From the NCBI GenBank assembly GCA_026392935.1, contig JAPLBE010000016.1, forward strand, positions 101,381 to 165,380: a DNA stretch of 64,000 nucleotides, read 5' to 3'. Below, in pieces: positions 18,379 through 22,804 of this stretch. Under the pieces are notes generated by a model. The model saw only the letters and a program-made list of their open reading frames with translations, made no database searches and had not been told where the DNA came from. The translations under genes and the position numbers were made by a program. The stretch's first letter is position 1; every line of letters begins with the position of its first letter. This DNA is from Actinomycetota bacterium. Its GTDB lineage: Bacteria > Actinomycetota > Actinomycetes > Nanopelagicales > Nanopelagicaceae.

Positions 18379-19308
18379 GTGAGCGCGATAAATCAGCATC
18401 CTTCCCGCATAGATCGCGCTGGAGATTTGCGTACGAATCAAAATACTTTGGATCAGTTGTGGAACCAAGCACGAATCCTGCAGATATCGGAAGGACGAAT
18501 AGCAGCTACAGGAACGCAACTCGCTTACATTTCTGCCGCAGATGCTGCGCAGTTGATTGCGACGGGGCGTTTTTCAGAGGGCAGTAGATATTTTCTGGGA
18601 TTAGATATTGAAAGTCGAACACCATTTTTTGCATGGGATACACAGTGGGTTAAGACCCTGAGTGATGAAGAGAAAAGTGAAGGCTTCTCAACAGTTCGAG
18701 AAATTGGTGCGCAACTTTCAGAGCAAGAGTTAGAGCTTTCGCTGCACGCAATTGCTTTAAGTAATTGGCATAGCGCGCACCCGCGATGTCCACGTTGTGG
18801 TGGTGCGACAAAAGTTGATCTCGGCGGAGCGGCACGTTTATGCGAAACAGATCAGAGTCAGCATCATCCGCGCACTGATTCAGCTGTCATAGTTCTTGTG
18901 AAAGATCGTAGCGATCGCATTTTGCTAGGACACCAACCGGTATGGCCAGAGGGACGATTCTCAACATTTGCTGGCTTCTTAGAACCTGGTGAAACTTTTG
19001 AACAATGTGTATCCCGTGAAATTTTCGAAGAGTCAGCGGTGACCGTGAGCGAGATTAAGTATTTAGGTTCGCAACCGTGGCCGTTTCCAGCAAGCATCAT
19101 GATTTCTTTTGAAGCAGTGACAGATAATCCAGAGGATGCTCGCGGTGATGGTCAAGAAATTACCGAAGTTAAATGGTTTAGCCGCGCAGAATTATTAGCT
19201 GCAGCTAAAGATAAATCACTTTTACTACCACCATCTATATCTGTTGCTCGCAAAATGATTGAACGTTGGCTTGGTGAAAGCGCCCCCGGCGGAGAAACAT
19301 GGCGGTAG
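18379..19308 (+). CDS. nudC: NAD+ diphosphatase (Nudix)
   Basis: Zn ribbon CPRCGG; Nudix box GFLEPGETFEQCVSREIFEESAV; SQPWPFPASIM NudC signature. Confidence 0.92.
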   Translation: MSAINQHPSRIDRAGDLRTNQNTLDQLWNQARILQISEGRIAATGTQLAYISAADAAQLIATGRFSEGSRYFLGLDIESRTPFFAWDTQWVKTLSDEEKSEGFSTVREIGAQLSEQELELSLHAIALSNWHSAHPRCPRCGGATKVDLGGAARLCETDQSQHHPRTDSAVIVLVKDRSDRILLGHQPVWPEGRFSTFAGFLEPGETFEQCVSREIFEESAVTVSEIKYLGSQPWPFPASIMISFEAVTDNPEDARGDGQEITEVKWFSRAELLAAAKDKSLLLPPSISVARKMIERWLGESAPGGETWR

Positions 19309-19312
19309 ATCT

Positions 19313-20968
19313 GTGGCAGTAGAAGATTCCATTCTTGCCGCACTCGATTCTGAACAACGCGCAGTGGCGCTGGCTACACGCGGACCTGTCTGTGTTATTG
19401 CTGGAGCAGGTACTGGAAAAACTCGCGCAATCACCCATCGCATTGCTTATGCAGCAGCTATCGGCACAATGGATCCGCAAAAGGTTTTGGCACTCACATT
19501 CACAGCAAAAGCTGCAGGCGAGATGCGTGCCCGACTTCGCACACTGGGTGTTCCTACCGTTGCCGCGCGCACAATTCACTCAGCAGCGCTAAAGCAACTG
19601 CTTTACTTCTGGCCATCAGTATTTGGAGGCCGAACTCCAGACTTAATTACAACAAAGACCGGATTTCTCTCAGAGGCGATAAACCGCGCAGGGCTTAGCG
19701 AATCATTGCGTGCAACTAATCGAGAACTGATGAGAGACATTGCTTCAGAAATTGAATGGGCAAAAGTTTCACAAGTGGCACCGACAGATTATGTAGATCA
19801 AGTTGGCCGTCGCATGCAAAAACCGCGTGTTCTGCCAGAGCAGATGGTTCAGATCTACACAGCATATGAATCGATTAAGAAACAAGAACTTGCCATCGAT
19901 TTTGAAGATGTGTTACTTCTCTGTTCAGCAATGCTTGAACAAGAGCGAGAGGTCCGCGAGCGAGTGCAAGATCAATATAGATATTTCACCATCGATGAAT
20001 ACCAGGACATTTCTCCTATTCAACAACGTTTAATAAATGCTTGGCTTGGAACGCGAAAAGATATCTGCGTTGTTGGAGATCCTGCACAAACGATTTATTC
20101 ATTTGCTGGTGCAACACCAGTCTTCCTCAACTCCTTTACTCAAAGATTTCCTGAAGCCCAAGTAATTCGTCTGACAACTGGATACCGATCAACTCCCGAA
20201 ATTACCTTTGCAGCGAATGCTCTTCTACGCTCTGCCACGATGGGACAAGAACTCGTTGCATTTAATACTCATGGCTCGAAACCCGTAGTTACCGGTTATT
20301 CTGATGAGAGCGCTGAGATAAGCGGTGTTATGAAAGAAATTAATGAGCTACTAAGCACCGGTACTCAACCTCAAGAGATTGCAATTTTGGCTCGAACAAA
20401 TGCCCAATTAAAGGGCGCCGAAAAGGCGATGCTTGCGCAGAACATCCCTTATCAAGTTCGCAACACTGAGCGATTTTTTGAGCGCAGAGAGATTCGCGAT
20501 TTTCTTAAACAAGTTCGCCAAGCATCTGTTATTCCGGCAGAGGGCCAAGGGTGGATCGATGAATTGCGTTCCATTGCGCAGCCGTATCTAACGGGCGAAG
20601 CAATTGATGGAATTGCCGCACTCTTACATTTAGCCCGTGAGTTAGATGCAGATGATAATTTTTCACCGAAAACTCTGCGCGGATATCTTCGTGAAGTCGA
20701 AGATCGCGTGCAGCAAAACAATCCACCAACAATGCCTGTGGTTACTCTTGCAACTCTGCATGCTGCAAAGGGACTTGAATGGGATCGCGTATTTCTTATC
20801 GGCGCCTCAGAGGGCCAACTTCCGCTGACCAACAGCGCAGGCGAAGCTGTAGTCGATGAGGAGCGCAGGCTCTTTTACGTGGGAATTACGCGTGCCAAGG
20901 CTGATCTTCATATCTCGTATAGGGGAAATCCGAGCTCATTCCTGCGTGAAGCCAGCCTCCTGGCCTAG
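19313..20968 (+). CDS. uvrD2: UvrD2-type superfamily I DNA helicase, lacking an HRDC-type C-terminus
   Basis: IAGAGTGKTRAITHRI; DEYQDISPIQQRL; TLHAAKGLEWDRVFLIG; nudC-uvrD2-whiB7 order as in mycobacteria; start placed at GTG 19313. Confidence 0.85.
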   Translation: MAVEDSILAALDSEQRAVALATRGPVCVIAGAGTGKTRAITHRIAYAAAIGTMDPQKVLALTFTAKAAGEMRARLRTLGVPTVAARTIHSAALKQLLYFWPSVFGGRTPDLITTKTGFLSEAINRAGLSESLRATNRELMRDIASEIEWAKVSQVAPTDYVDQVGRRMQKPRVLPEQMVQIYTAYESIKKQELAIDFEDVLLLCSAMLEQEREVRERVQDQYRYFTIDEYQDISPIQQRLINAWLGTRKDICVVGDPAQTIYSFAGATPVFLNSFTQRFPEAQVIRLTTGYRSTPEITFAANALLRSATMGQELVAFNTHGSKPVVTGYSDESAEISGVMKEINELLSTGTQPQEIAILARTNAQLKGAEKAMLAQNIPYQVRNTERFFERREIRDFLKQVRQASVIPAEGQGWIDELRSIAQPYLTGEAIDGIAALLHLARELDADDNFSPKTLRGYLREVEDRVQQNNPPTMPVVTLATLHAAKGLEWDRVFLIGASEGQLPLTNSAGEAVVDEERRLFYVGITRAKADLHISYRGNPSSFLREASLLA

Positions 20969-20981
20969 ATAATTAATTGGG

Positions 20982-21011
20982 TTGCATCTTCATATCGTCA
21001 TCGCGTACCCT
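20982..21011 (+). promoter_or_regulatory. Candidate sigma-A/WhiB7-type promoter of the whiB7 leader
   Basis: TTGCAT (20982-20987), 18-nt spacer, TACCCT (21006-21011), with AT-rich taattaatt immediately upstream of the -35. Confidence 0.5.
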
Positions 21012-21052
21012 TTTACTCCGGACAAAAGTCCACGTACAAAGAAGGGGTTGAA

Positions 21053-21202
21053 ATGAACGCAATATTCACTTCAACAATCACAGCAGGCGCACGCGCTGCT
21101 GTTCCTTCTCATGCTCATACAACCTCAAAAACTGCTGCTAAGCGCTGGTTCTACGCCAACTTTTATGCAGTGGATGAGGCCACGGGAGCACTAATCGGCT
21201 AA
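21053..21202 (+). CDS. 49-aa upstream ORF (leader peptide) of whiB7
   Basis: MNAIFTSTITAGARAAVPSHAHTTSKTAAKRWFYANFYAVDEATGALIG*, preceded by GAAGGGG; missing from the ORF track because of its length. Confidence 0.7.
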   Translation: MNAIFTSTITAGARAAVPSHAHTTSKTAAKRWFYANFYAVDEATGALIG

Positions 21203-21219
21203 TACCGAATACGACCCAC

Positions 21220-21260
21220 AAGGGCCTCAAATCCACAAAGGATTTGTAGGTCCTTTTTTA
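21220..21260 (+). terminator. Intrinsic terminator/attenuator between the uORF and whiB7
   Basis: AAGGGCCTCAAATCC-ACAAA-GGATTTGTAGGTCCTTTTTTTA: 15-bp stem with one bulged T and one G-T pair, followed by a T tract. Confidence 0.85.
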
Positions 21261-21324
21261 TTTCCATAAAACCAACCAAAAAAAGAAGAAAGTAAGATCA
21301 CACAAGAGAGAAGAGGTGAGGACT

Positions 21325-21681
21325 ATGACAGTTCTCTTCAGCGAATTACAGATTCCAGGCTGGGCAGATAGCGGCAAGAAGATTGGCCTTAACGATGTGA
21401 CGTTCACATACGACAACGCCAAGGCCTTTACCCTGCCATGCCATGTTGCTGACCCTGAACTCTTCTACTCTGAAACAGATCAGGGAATTGCAGAAGCGAA
21501 AGCTCTCTGCAGTCAGTGCCCTGTGCGCAACAAGTGTCTTGATGGTGCGCTCTCACGCCAAGAACCGTGTGGAGTGTGGGGAGGCCAACTCATTGAAGAT
21601 GGCGTCATCATCGAACGTAAGCGCCGCGCTGGCAGACCACCTCGTCAGGTGATTGCAGCTGCACGCATGCTTGAGGAGTAA
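21325..21681 (+). CDS. whiB7: WhiB-family Fe-S transcriptional regulator, WhiB7/WblC type
   Basis: LPCHVADPELF...CSQCPVRNKC...GVWGGQLIEDG and C-terminal AT-hook-like RRAGRPPRQ diagnostic of WhiB7; adjacent to uvrD2. Confidence 0.88.
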   Translation: MTVLFSELQIPGWADSGKKIGLNDVTFTYDNAKAFTLPCHVADPELFYSETDQGIAEAKALCSQCPVRNKCLDGALSRQEPCGVWGGQLIEDGVIIERKRRAGRPPRQVIAAARMLEE

Positions 21682-21685
21682 GTAG

Positions 21686-22804
21686 TTAGAAGGCACATCC
21701 ACATAAGGGGTGGCGAGGAATCGCGATAGTTTGTGGGTGCGCTAAGAATTGGTAGTCAATGGTTATTACATTGCCTACCAATTCTGCTTTCTGCGCACCT
21801 GTAGTTAAGCCATCGATGTAACTGAGAATCTGCGAAGCAGCCAGGGCTGCAACATAGTGGGCTGCAATTTGTGGGTATTCCCGCTGGTTATTGTGAGTAA
21901 TTTCCAAAGTCTCTTCAATGCCATTGTGATCATTGAAAAACAGAGTTGCGCACCGTACGCATGGTGAGTTTCCAGGAATAACGAGCGGGCCGATGTGAGC
22001 AGTATCTGCACGCGGAGATGGAATATAAAGAAAATTCTGGTGAGTACTCATCCAGAGTGAGAGTTTCTCTGGTTCCACGTCTCCACAATGAACCCGCAAG
22101 TCAACATGTAATGATTGTGCCAAATAGTCATATTCACGTTCTAAAGGAAAGAGTGATAATTCTTTTCGTAGTGCCTCAGAATGGCTATTGAAATCTTTTC
22201 CGAACTCTGATGGAAGCAGAGTTCCTACACCGATATCAAGATCGCCAATTGTCAGTGCTAGGCCACGTGAATTAGGAGTAAATCGAGTGTGAGTTACTCC
22301 GCTTAATAGGAGTAGTGAGTAGAGAATAGTTGTTACTCGATTTCGCCCTGAGAGTTCGACTAGATAATTCTGGCGAGCGCTTAAGATTTCAACCCCCGAA
22401 TCATTAACGCCATCTATCCAATTCGTTTGGTGTAGTTCAGGATTACTTCGCCGTTGCAGTTGGAGAAAACTTGCGTCCGCAAAATTCTTAACATTTCTTG
22501 AAACCCTAGTATCAATTTTTGAAACGAATCGGGGAGAGACTTTTAGAGAGTTCTGAGTTGTATCAATTAATTGAAGAGCCTCGAGCTCCTGCATCATCTC
22601 CCACAAAATTTGAGAATCCAGGTCTGCGGTGGCGAGAATTACGGAACTTGATTTGCCCGCCAATAACTGCAGAGCGATAAATTTACGCTCTTGAGTGTGG
22701 ATGCGAATGAATTTTTCGAGAGTGCCCGATTTGAGTATTCCAAGTAGATATTCGCTTGAATTTTTACGTGAATAAAGTTCGACGCCATCTTTGATTCGCT
22801 TCAT
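21686..22804 (-). CDS. ThiF/E1-like, TOMM cyclodehydratase (leader-peptide-binding) related protein
   Basis: HIGPLVIPGNSPCVRCATL...YVAALAASQILSYIDG...HPLCGCAF, typical of the cyclodehydratase C/ThiF-like family. Confidence 0.65.
   Translation of the reverse strand: MKRIKDGVELYSRKNSSEYLLGILKSGTLEKFIRIHTQERKFIALQLLAGKSSSVILATADLDSQILWEMMQELEALQLIDTTQNSLKVSPRFVSKIDTRVSRNVKNFADASFLQLQRRSNPELHQTNWIDGVNDSGVEILSARQNYLVELSGRNRVTTILYSLLLLSGVTHTRFTPNSRGLALTIGDLDIGVGTLLPSEFGKDFNSHSEALRKELSLFPLEREYDYLAQSLHVDLRVHCGDVEPEKLSLWMSTHQNFLYIPSPRADTAHIGPLVIPGNSPCVRCATLFFNDHNGIEETLEITHNNQREYPQIAAHYVAALAASQILSYIDGLTTGAQKAELVGNVITIDYQFLAHPQTIAIPRHPLCGCAF

Follow-up and report, generated by a model that had tools for sequence, protein, structure and literature searches.

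The segment between uvrD2 and whiB7 in a Planktophila-type freshwater actinobacterium is very probably a uORF-dependent transcription attenuator of the whiB7/wblC kind. It was found in a stretch of 64,000 nt, here called the window, in which a promoter and, in front of it, a presumed WhiB7 box precede a uORF, and the end of the uORF can pair with the 5′ arm of an intrinsic terminator in front of whiB7. As judged from sequence comparison, these elements are present and conserved, and both strands of the antiterminator coevolve. The features are as follows (all on the + strand).

20971–20978, +: presumed WhiB7 binding box (autoregulation), AATTAATT, its end exactly 3 nt from the −35
20982–21011, +: promoter TTGCAT-N18-TACCCT, with −35 at 20982–20987 and −10 at 21006–21011
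21041–21047, +: predicted Shine-Dalgarno sequence of the uORF, GAAGGGG
21053–21202, +: uORF of 49 codons, MNAIFTSTITAGARAAVPSHAHTTSKTAAKRWFYANFYAVDEATGALIG, with ATG at 21053 and TAA at 21200–21202
21170–21198, +: antiterminator 5′ strand, within the last 10 uORF codons (21170–21174, 21175–21181, 21184–21186, 21192–21198)
21205–21236, +: antiterminator 3′ strand, formed by the post-stop spacer and the terminator 5′ arm
21220–21259, +: intrinsic terminator, with stem 21220–21234/21240–21255, loop 21235–21239 and T6 at 21254–21259
21325–21681, +: whiB7, 118 aa, with a WhiB domain (Pfam WhiB, 1.2e-16)

Results

Downstream of the Leader Lies a WhiB7 Ortholog

The gene at 21325–21681 had been annotated initially as whiB7, and its sequence identifies it as a WhiB7 ortholog. 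The product carries the Fe-S cysteines (CX22CX2CX5C), EPCGVWGG and an AGRPPR AT-hook; its best PDB relative is M. tuberculosis WhiB7 (1.1e-23, with WhiB1 only at 1.6e-9), and EPxGVWGG and the C-terminal GRP AT-hook align between the two proteins. The local gene order, nudC-uvrD2-whiB7, is also that around M. tuberculosis whiB7. The closest named relatives of the product come from freshwater MAGs (97%), isolate IMCC25003 (93%) and Ca. Planktophila versatilis (91%), and we therefore place the host, whose genome measures 1.35 Mb, as a Planktophila-type member of the Nanopelagicaceae.

We sampled 151 genomes of this family, all of which (151/151) have a WhiB match, and read 110 whiB7 loci, of which 106 had enough upstream DNA (at least 330 nt) and gave 96 non-redundant leaders. 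One genome (G092) holds two near-identical whiB7 loci (L043 and L044) on separate contigs, probably through assembly redundancy.

Several features of the neighborhood were observed in passing. The UvrD2-like helicase ORF (19259–20968) encodes just 569 aa and begins with a TTG that overlaps the 3′ end of nudC; the domain search reported no HRDC domain for it. On the other side, a long inverted repeat (21733–21802) resembling a two-way terminator lies between whiB7 (+) and the convergent ORF 21686–22804 (−). A mir-192 look-alike reported by Rfam on both strands at 21733–21802 scored below the cut-off and coincides with this repeat between convergent genes, and the miRNA reading was dropped. The 372-aa protein of 21686–22804 (−) has no Pfam match and falls just below threshold for the TOMM leader-peptide-binding model TIGR03882 (34.3 versus 36.9 bits).

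A Conserved Promoter Is Preceded by a Candidate WhiB7 Box

The promoter TTGCAT-N18-TACCCT with AT-rich DNA upstream had been recognized at the correct coordinates in the initial annotation, and we add the box AATTAATT in front of it. Transcription is predicted to start at about 21018–21019, given that Streptomyces transcripts start 7–8 bp past the −10 (PMC7157823). Within the family, TTAATT is the column majority of the box (83–94 of 95 leaders per base), TTGC at the −35 and a spacing of 18 occur in 95/95 leaders, and the −10 reads TA...T with a C/T-rich middle; the 95/95 figures are biased upward, as the promoter finder favored TTGC, a C-rich −10 and a spacing of 17 or 18. Two less biased checks were a genome-wide search with a strict box/promoter pattern and a shuffling control. 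The strict pattern was found in 97/151 family genomes, with roughly one match in each, which almost always lies at whiB7 or close to the end of a contig; its reversed form occurs nowhere (0). The shuffling control gave 72/95 for the observed leaders and 0/9,500 for shuffled ones. A generic sigma-70 scan detected no promoter at the leader, because the −10 TACCCT is too far from TATAAT.

The layout of the box matches the ChIP motif of M. abscessus (PMC10727445) and the WblC motif of S. coelicolor (PMC7157823), and its position points to autoregulation, in which WhiB7 would raise its own transcription. Further WhiB7 targets were sought in this genome with a relaxed box pattern, which gave 45 matches versus 39 for the reversed control, so that no regulon was recognized; no convincing WhiB7 box lies in front of hflX.

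A Strong Terminator Precedes whiB7 in Every Leader

The intrinsic terminator, also correctly placed initially, has a folding energy of −20.9 kcal/mol (z −5.9 relative to dinucleotide-shuffled sequences), and a strong terminator (−16.6 to −29.8 kcal/mol) is conserved in 106/106 family leaders. In the 96 non-redundant leaders, the distance from the uORF stop codon to the terminator ranges from a few nt to 22 nt. Throughout the family, a T-rich run follows the hairpin, whose end lies 42–225 nt 5′ of whiB7, a geometry that bears on whether the leader might instead act by translational attenuation, hiding or freeing the whiB7 Shine-Dalgarno sequence. In favor of this, the uORF lies within coupling distance, and a strong Shine-Dalgarno sequence contains a GTG 9 nt ahead of the ATG. 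However, the T-rich run, the distance to the gene and the fact that the whiB7 Shine-Dalgarno sequence is not part of the predicted antiterminator make translational attenuation highly improbable.

The uORF Is Conserved and Carries a Coding Signature

The 49-codon uORF at 21053–21202, correctly delimited from the outset, has a counterpart starting 3′ of the promoter in 95/96 family leaders, whereas the other two frames are open over those spans in only 18 and 21. Family uORFs are 43–76 codons long, and a Shine-Dalgarno sequence is present before 54/95 of them. Substitutions show a third-codon-position excess (614 versus 390 and 391), codons with a single change are synonymous in 311 and nonsynonymous in 337 cases, and 41% of indel lengths are multiples of three versus 24% in a control spacer, which is modest coding evidence. 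On this coding signature, the uORF may be translated.

The peptide ends, each running up to the stop codon, read GTWSxIG in the family and ATGALIG in the window, with ...TWS-PPV and ...TWS-xIG as shared forms. Codons 32–39 (21146–21169) contain aromatic-Ala motifs, FYANFYA in the window and AFYAAFYA or NFAAYG in relatives, which lie just 5′ of the antiterminator strand, at about the last place where a stall would still free that strand; these motifs could be a programmed pause.

The uORF 3′ End Coevolves with the Downstream Strand

The initial annotation had described an alternative pairing of 12 bp with a 2-nt bulge. This outer antiterminator (21170–21174/21232–21236 and 21175–21181/21223–21229) is exact as written but incomplete: inner helices at 21184–21186/21215–21217 and 21192–21198/21205–21211 (six pairs, one mismatch) add 9 bp inward to 21198/21205. 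The full antiterminator thus has 21 bp in nested helices, and the loop of the innermost helix holds the uORF stop codon. The segment 21165–21239 folds at −26.8 kcal/mol (z −4.1).

Support for this pairing comes from an alignment-free swap test, in which the last 45 nt of the uORF were joined to the leader's own downstream strand or to that of another leader (one further leader, L090, has its uORF in place and was left out of the pairing analysis). Across 21 divergent leaders, native combinations fold at −30.3 kcal/mol versus −22.2 kcal/mol for swapped ones (z −9.8), with 0/5,000 permutations as good (p ~0.0002), whereas the preceding 45 nt of the uORF, used as a control, give z −0.4. When the tail is rewritten with synonymous codons, the pairing is lost (median z −2.75; below −1.5 in 19/21 leaders), and just 1.9% of synonymous recodings of the window's own tail pair equally well. 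Many tail positions differ in pair type from leader to leader; codon −9, for instance, has A-U, G-C, U-A and C-G. The antiterminator is real, and the uORF 3′ end and the downstream strand coevolve. The swap, recoding and pair-type tests further indicate that the conserved end of the peptide is at least partly an RNA constraint, which qualifies the earlier suggestion that the peptide itself may be conserved, although similarity at the C terminus is present.

Covariation of the 21170–21181/21223–21236 pairing in relatives had been proposed as a check, and its outcome is divided between the swap test (z −9.8) and a column-wise test on a plain MAFFT alignment with a tree-based null. The latter gave three pairs at E <0.05, namely a terminator pair (84–103, E 0.04) and two pairs of neighboring columns, with none in the antiterminator; it is underpowered because spacer lengths vary in a non-structural alignment.

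These data also bear on a simpler reading, that the segment is a constitutive terminator of uvrD2 with a spurious ORF and that whiB7 has a promoter of its own farther 3′. The end of uvrD2 (20968) is indeed just 13 nt from the −35. The promoter, however, sits 3′ of uvrD2 and 5′ of the uORF, a promoter-like pair between terminator and gene occurs in just 2/106 leaders and is thus not recurrent, the uORF is found in nearly every leader, and strand coevolution is specific to the uORF tail. This reading is already contradicted by the conservation and is scarcely credible, and the attenuator interpretation is supported, with all structural elements known from whiB7/wblC attenuators both present and conserved.

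The Same Layout Extends Beyond the Family

The uORF-terminator-antiterminator layout recurs in 23 distant whiB7 leaders from other Actinomycetia families, Mycobacterium sp. E740 and Acidimicrobiia-type MAGs. These 23, taken because both a terminator and a uORF could be recognized in them, do not amount to a census; of the 47 distant loci, about half gave no clear call under simple start and terminator rules. Their uORFs often end in TWSPPV, PWRQPV, LGPPV or related tails before the stop codon, the antiterminator straddles the stop codon in most of them, and the swap test gives z −8.0 (control 0.1). In Rfam release 15 no family covers the leader, and four whiB7 loci, including that of Mycobacterium, gave no match at gathering score.

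Uneven Composition and Apparently Leaderless Starts of the uORFs

In 20 divergent leaders, Ala, Ser and Thr make up 48% of the uORF bodies versus 24% (s.d. 7%) in a background of 45-residue windows from long ORFs in the window, while Asp and Glu together reach 1.7% versus 11.8%, and Gly 2.8%. Base composition does not account for the Ala/Ser/Thr bias, since Pro, also encoded by an NCN codon family, lies below expectation. The bias is weaker in distant uORFs (nine leaders; Ala, Ser and Thr 37%, acidic residues 5%). Chloramphenicol and linezolid arrest best with a penultimate Ala, then Ser or Thr (PMC8987054), and we hypothesize from the peptide sequences that an Ala/Ser/Thr-rich, acid-poor body suits the sensing of phenicol- or oxazolidinone-type stalls or of alanine shortage.

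Alanine might even be the specific signal, with tRNA-Ala shortage rather than antibiotics as the natural trigger and WhiB7 serving nutrient stress in oligotrophs. Ala reaches 22% in the uORF bodies versus 10% in the background, and in both mycobacteria and Streptomyces whiB7 responds to starvation for alanine and amino acids. The enrichment, however, also extends to Ser, Thr, His, Phe, Asn and Trp, the Ala codons form no run at a single control position, and alanine and antibiotic signals use one switch and are thus compatible. We consider a specific alanine attenuator rather unlikely, and read the leader as an attenuator on which either signal could act.

About 36–41 of the 95 uORFs look leaderless, with a start (36 ATG, 5 GTG) 6–9 nt past the −10, around the position where Streptomyces transcripts start, the range reflecting five GTG cases that may instead have a short leader with a Shine-Dalgarno sequence and an ATG. 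Examples are L011, L042, L069, L079, L094 and L103, among others; other Nanopelagicaceae lineages are leadered, and in the window the uORF follows a normal leader with a Shine-Dalgarno sequence. If these uORFs are leaderless, the sensing ribosome would load without a Shine-Dalgarno sequence and answer initiation drugs differently. It is conceivable, if not our favored expectation, that the Nanopelagicaceae uORF peptide has been selected as a broad detector of peptidyl-transferase stalls (Ala/Ser/Thr-rich, Gly- and acid-poor) and, leaderless in over a third of cases, responds differently to initiation drugs.

Ribosome Position Would Decide Kinetically

Folding was calculated for 12 leaders with the footprint of a ribosome masked. 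With the P site at least 15 codons before the last sense codon, the predicted probability that the terminator 5′ arm is captured before the 3′ arm is made is ~0.95; the capture probability drops to 0.78 when the P site is 12 codons away from that codon and to 0.00–0.03 when it is between 9 and 3 codons away. Once the stop codon occupies the A site, the mean is 0.27. The leader of the window reaches 0.94 at this position, since under the simple mask its outer helix can close around the ribosome, an arrangement that is doubtful on steric grounds. In equilibrium folding, the terminator is favored for nearly every ribosome position, so that the decision would have to be kinetic, set by the order of synthesis.

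Together, these calculations suggest the following course. RNA polymerase would start at about 21018–21019, at the promoter with the presumed WhiB7 box, and transcribe the 49-codon uORF. A ribosome moving at normal speed would occupy the last ~11 uORF codons, and then the stop codon, as the terminator arm emerges; the antiterminator would be blocked, the terminator at 21220–21259 would fold and transcription would end before whiB7. A stalled or slow ribosome with its P site before about codon 37 would let the stop-codon hairpin fold first and zip outward, and the growing antiterminator would capture the terminator 5′ arm before the 3′ arm is made, giving read-through into whiB7. The initial proposal that a translating ribosome covers 21170–21181 and so allows the terminator to form agrees with P-site positions at about codons 38–48, whereas at the stop codon, as the footprint size suggests, the ribosome would cover the inner nucleating helices. 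By analogy with Mycobacterium and Streptomyces, the leader would respond to stalling drugs.

Discussion

These results place an apparently intact sensor of drug or translation stress in streamlined freshwater bacteria, a clade that is very abundant (PMC10202952). Its survival of genome reduction in every leader examined implies that ribosome-targeting compounds or a shortage of amino acids exert steady selection in lakes. The comparison of ~120 leaders also provides a testable structural model for the wider actinobacterial whiB7 attenuator, with the stop-codon hairpin as nucleus.

A uORF attenuator is typical of actinobacterial whiB7 genes (PMC10727445, PMC11550727, PMC4128351, PMC13236596). 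For Mycobacterium and Streptomyces it was described by Dinan 2014 (PMC4128351) and also, as cited in PMC11550727, PMC10727445 and PMC13393426, by Lee 2022. We found no description of it for the Planktophila/Nanopelagicaceae lineage in the literature compared, which did not extend to Lee 2022 and Poulton 2024. The leader belongs to this known kind and is not a new mechanism; what may be new are the leaderless uORFs, the Ala/Ser/Thr bias of the body and the purely kinetic decision suggested by folding.

The likeness to the whiB7/wblC attenuator covers the orthologous gene and its neighbors, the AT-rich candidate box 3 nt before the −35, a uORF ending just before a Rho-independent terminator, a mutually exclusive antiterminator built from the uORF 3′ end and the terminator 5′ arm, and a related (T)WS tail motif in many families. 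In contrast, the family uORFs of 43–76 codons have a different body, the family box is TTAATT rather than GAAAWY with the spacing fixed at 18, and many of the uORFs look leaderless. In the ilvB1 leader of M. tuberculosis, ribosome position on a uORF likewise selects terminator or antiterminator, but that leader senses branched-chain amino acids via LVVI codons and is unrelated in gene and sequence (PMC13236596). The ARE-ABCF leaders tiaA and are5sc also combine an antibiotic-sensing uORF with a terminator and antiterminator, whereas their own uORFs are much shorter, stall ribosomes at the start codon and precede other genes (PMC12421871).
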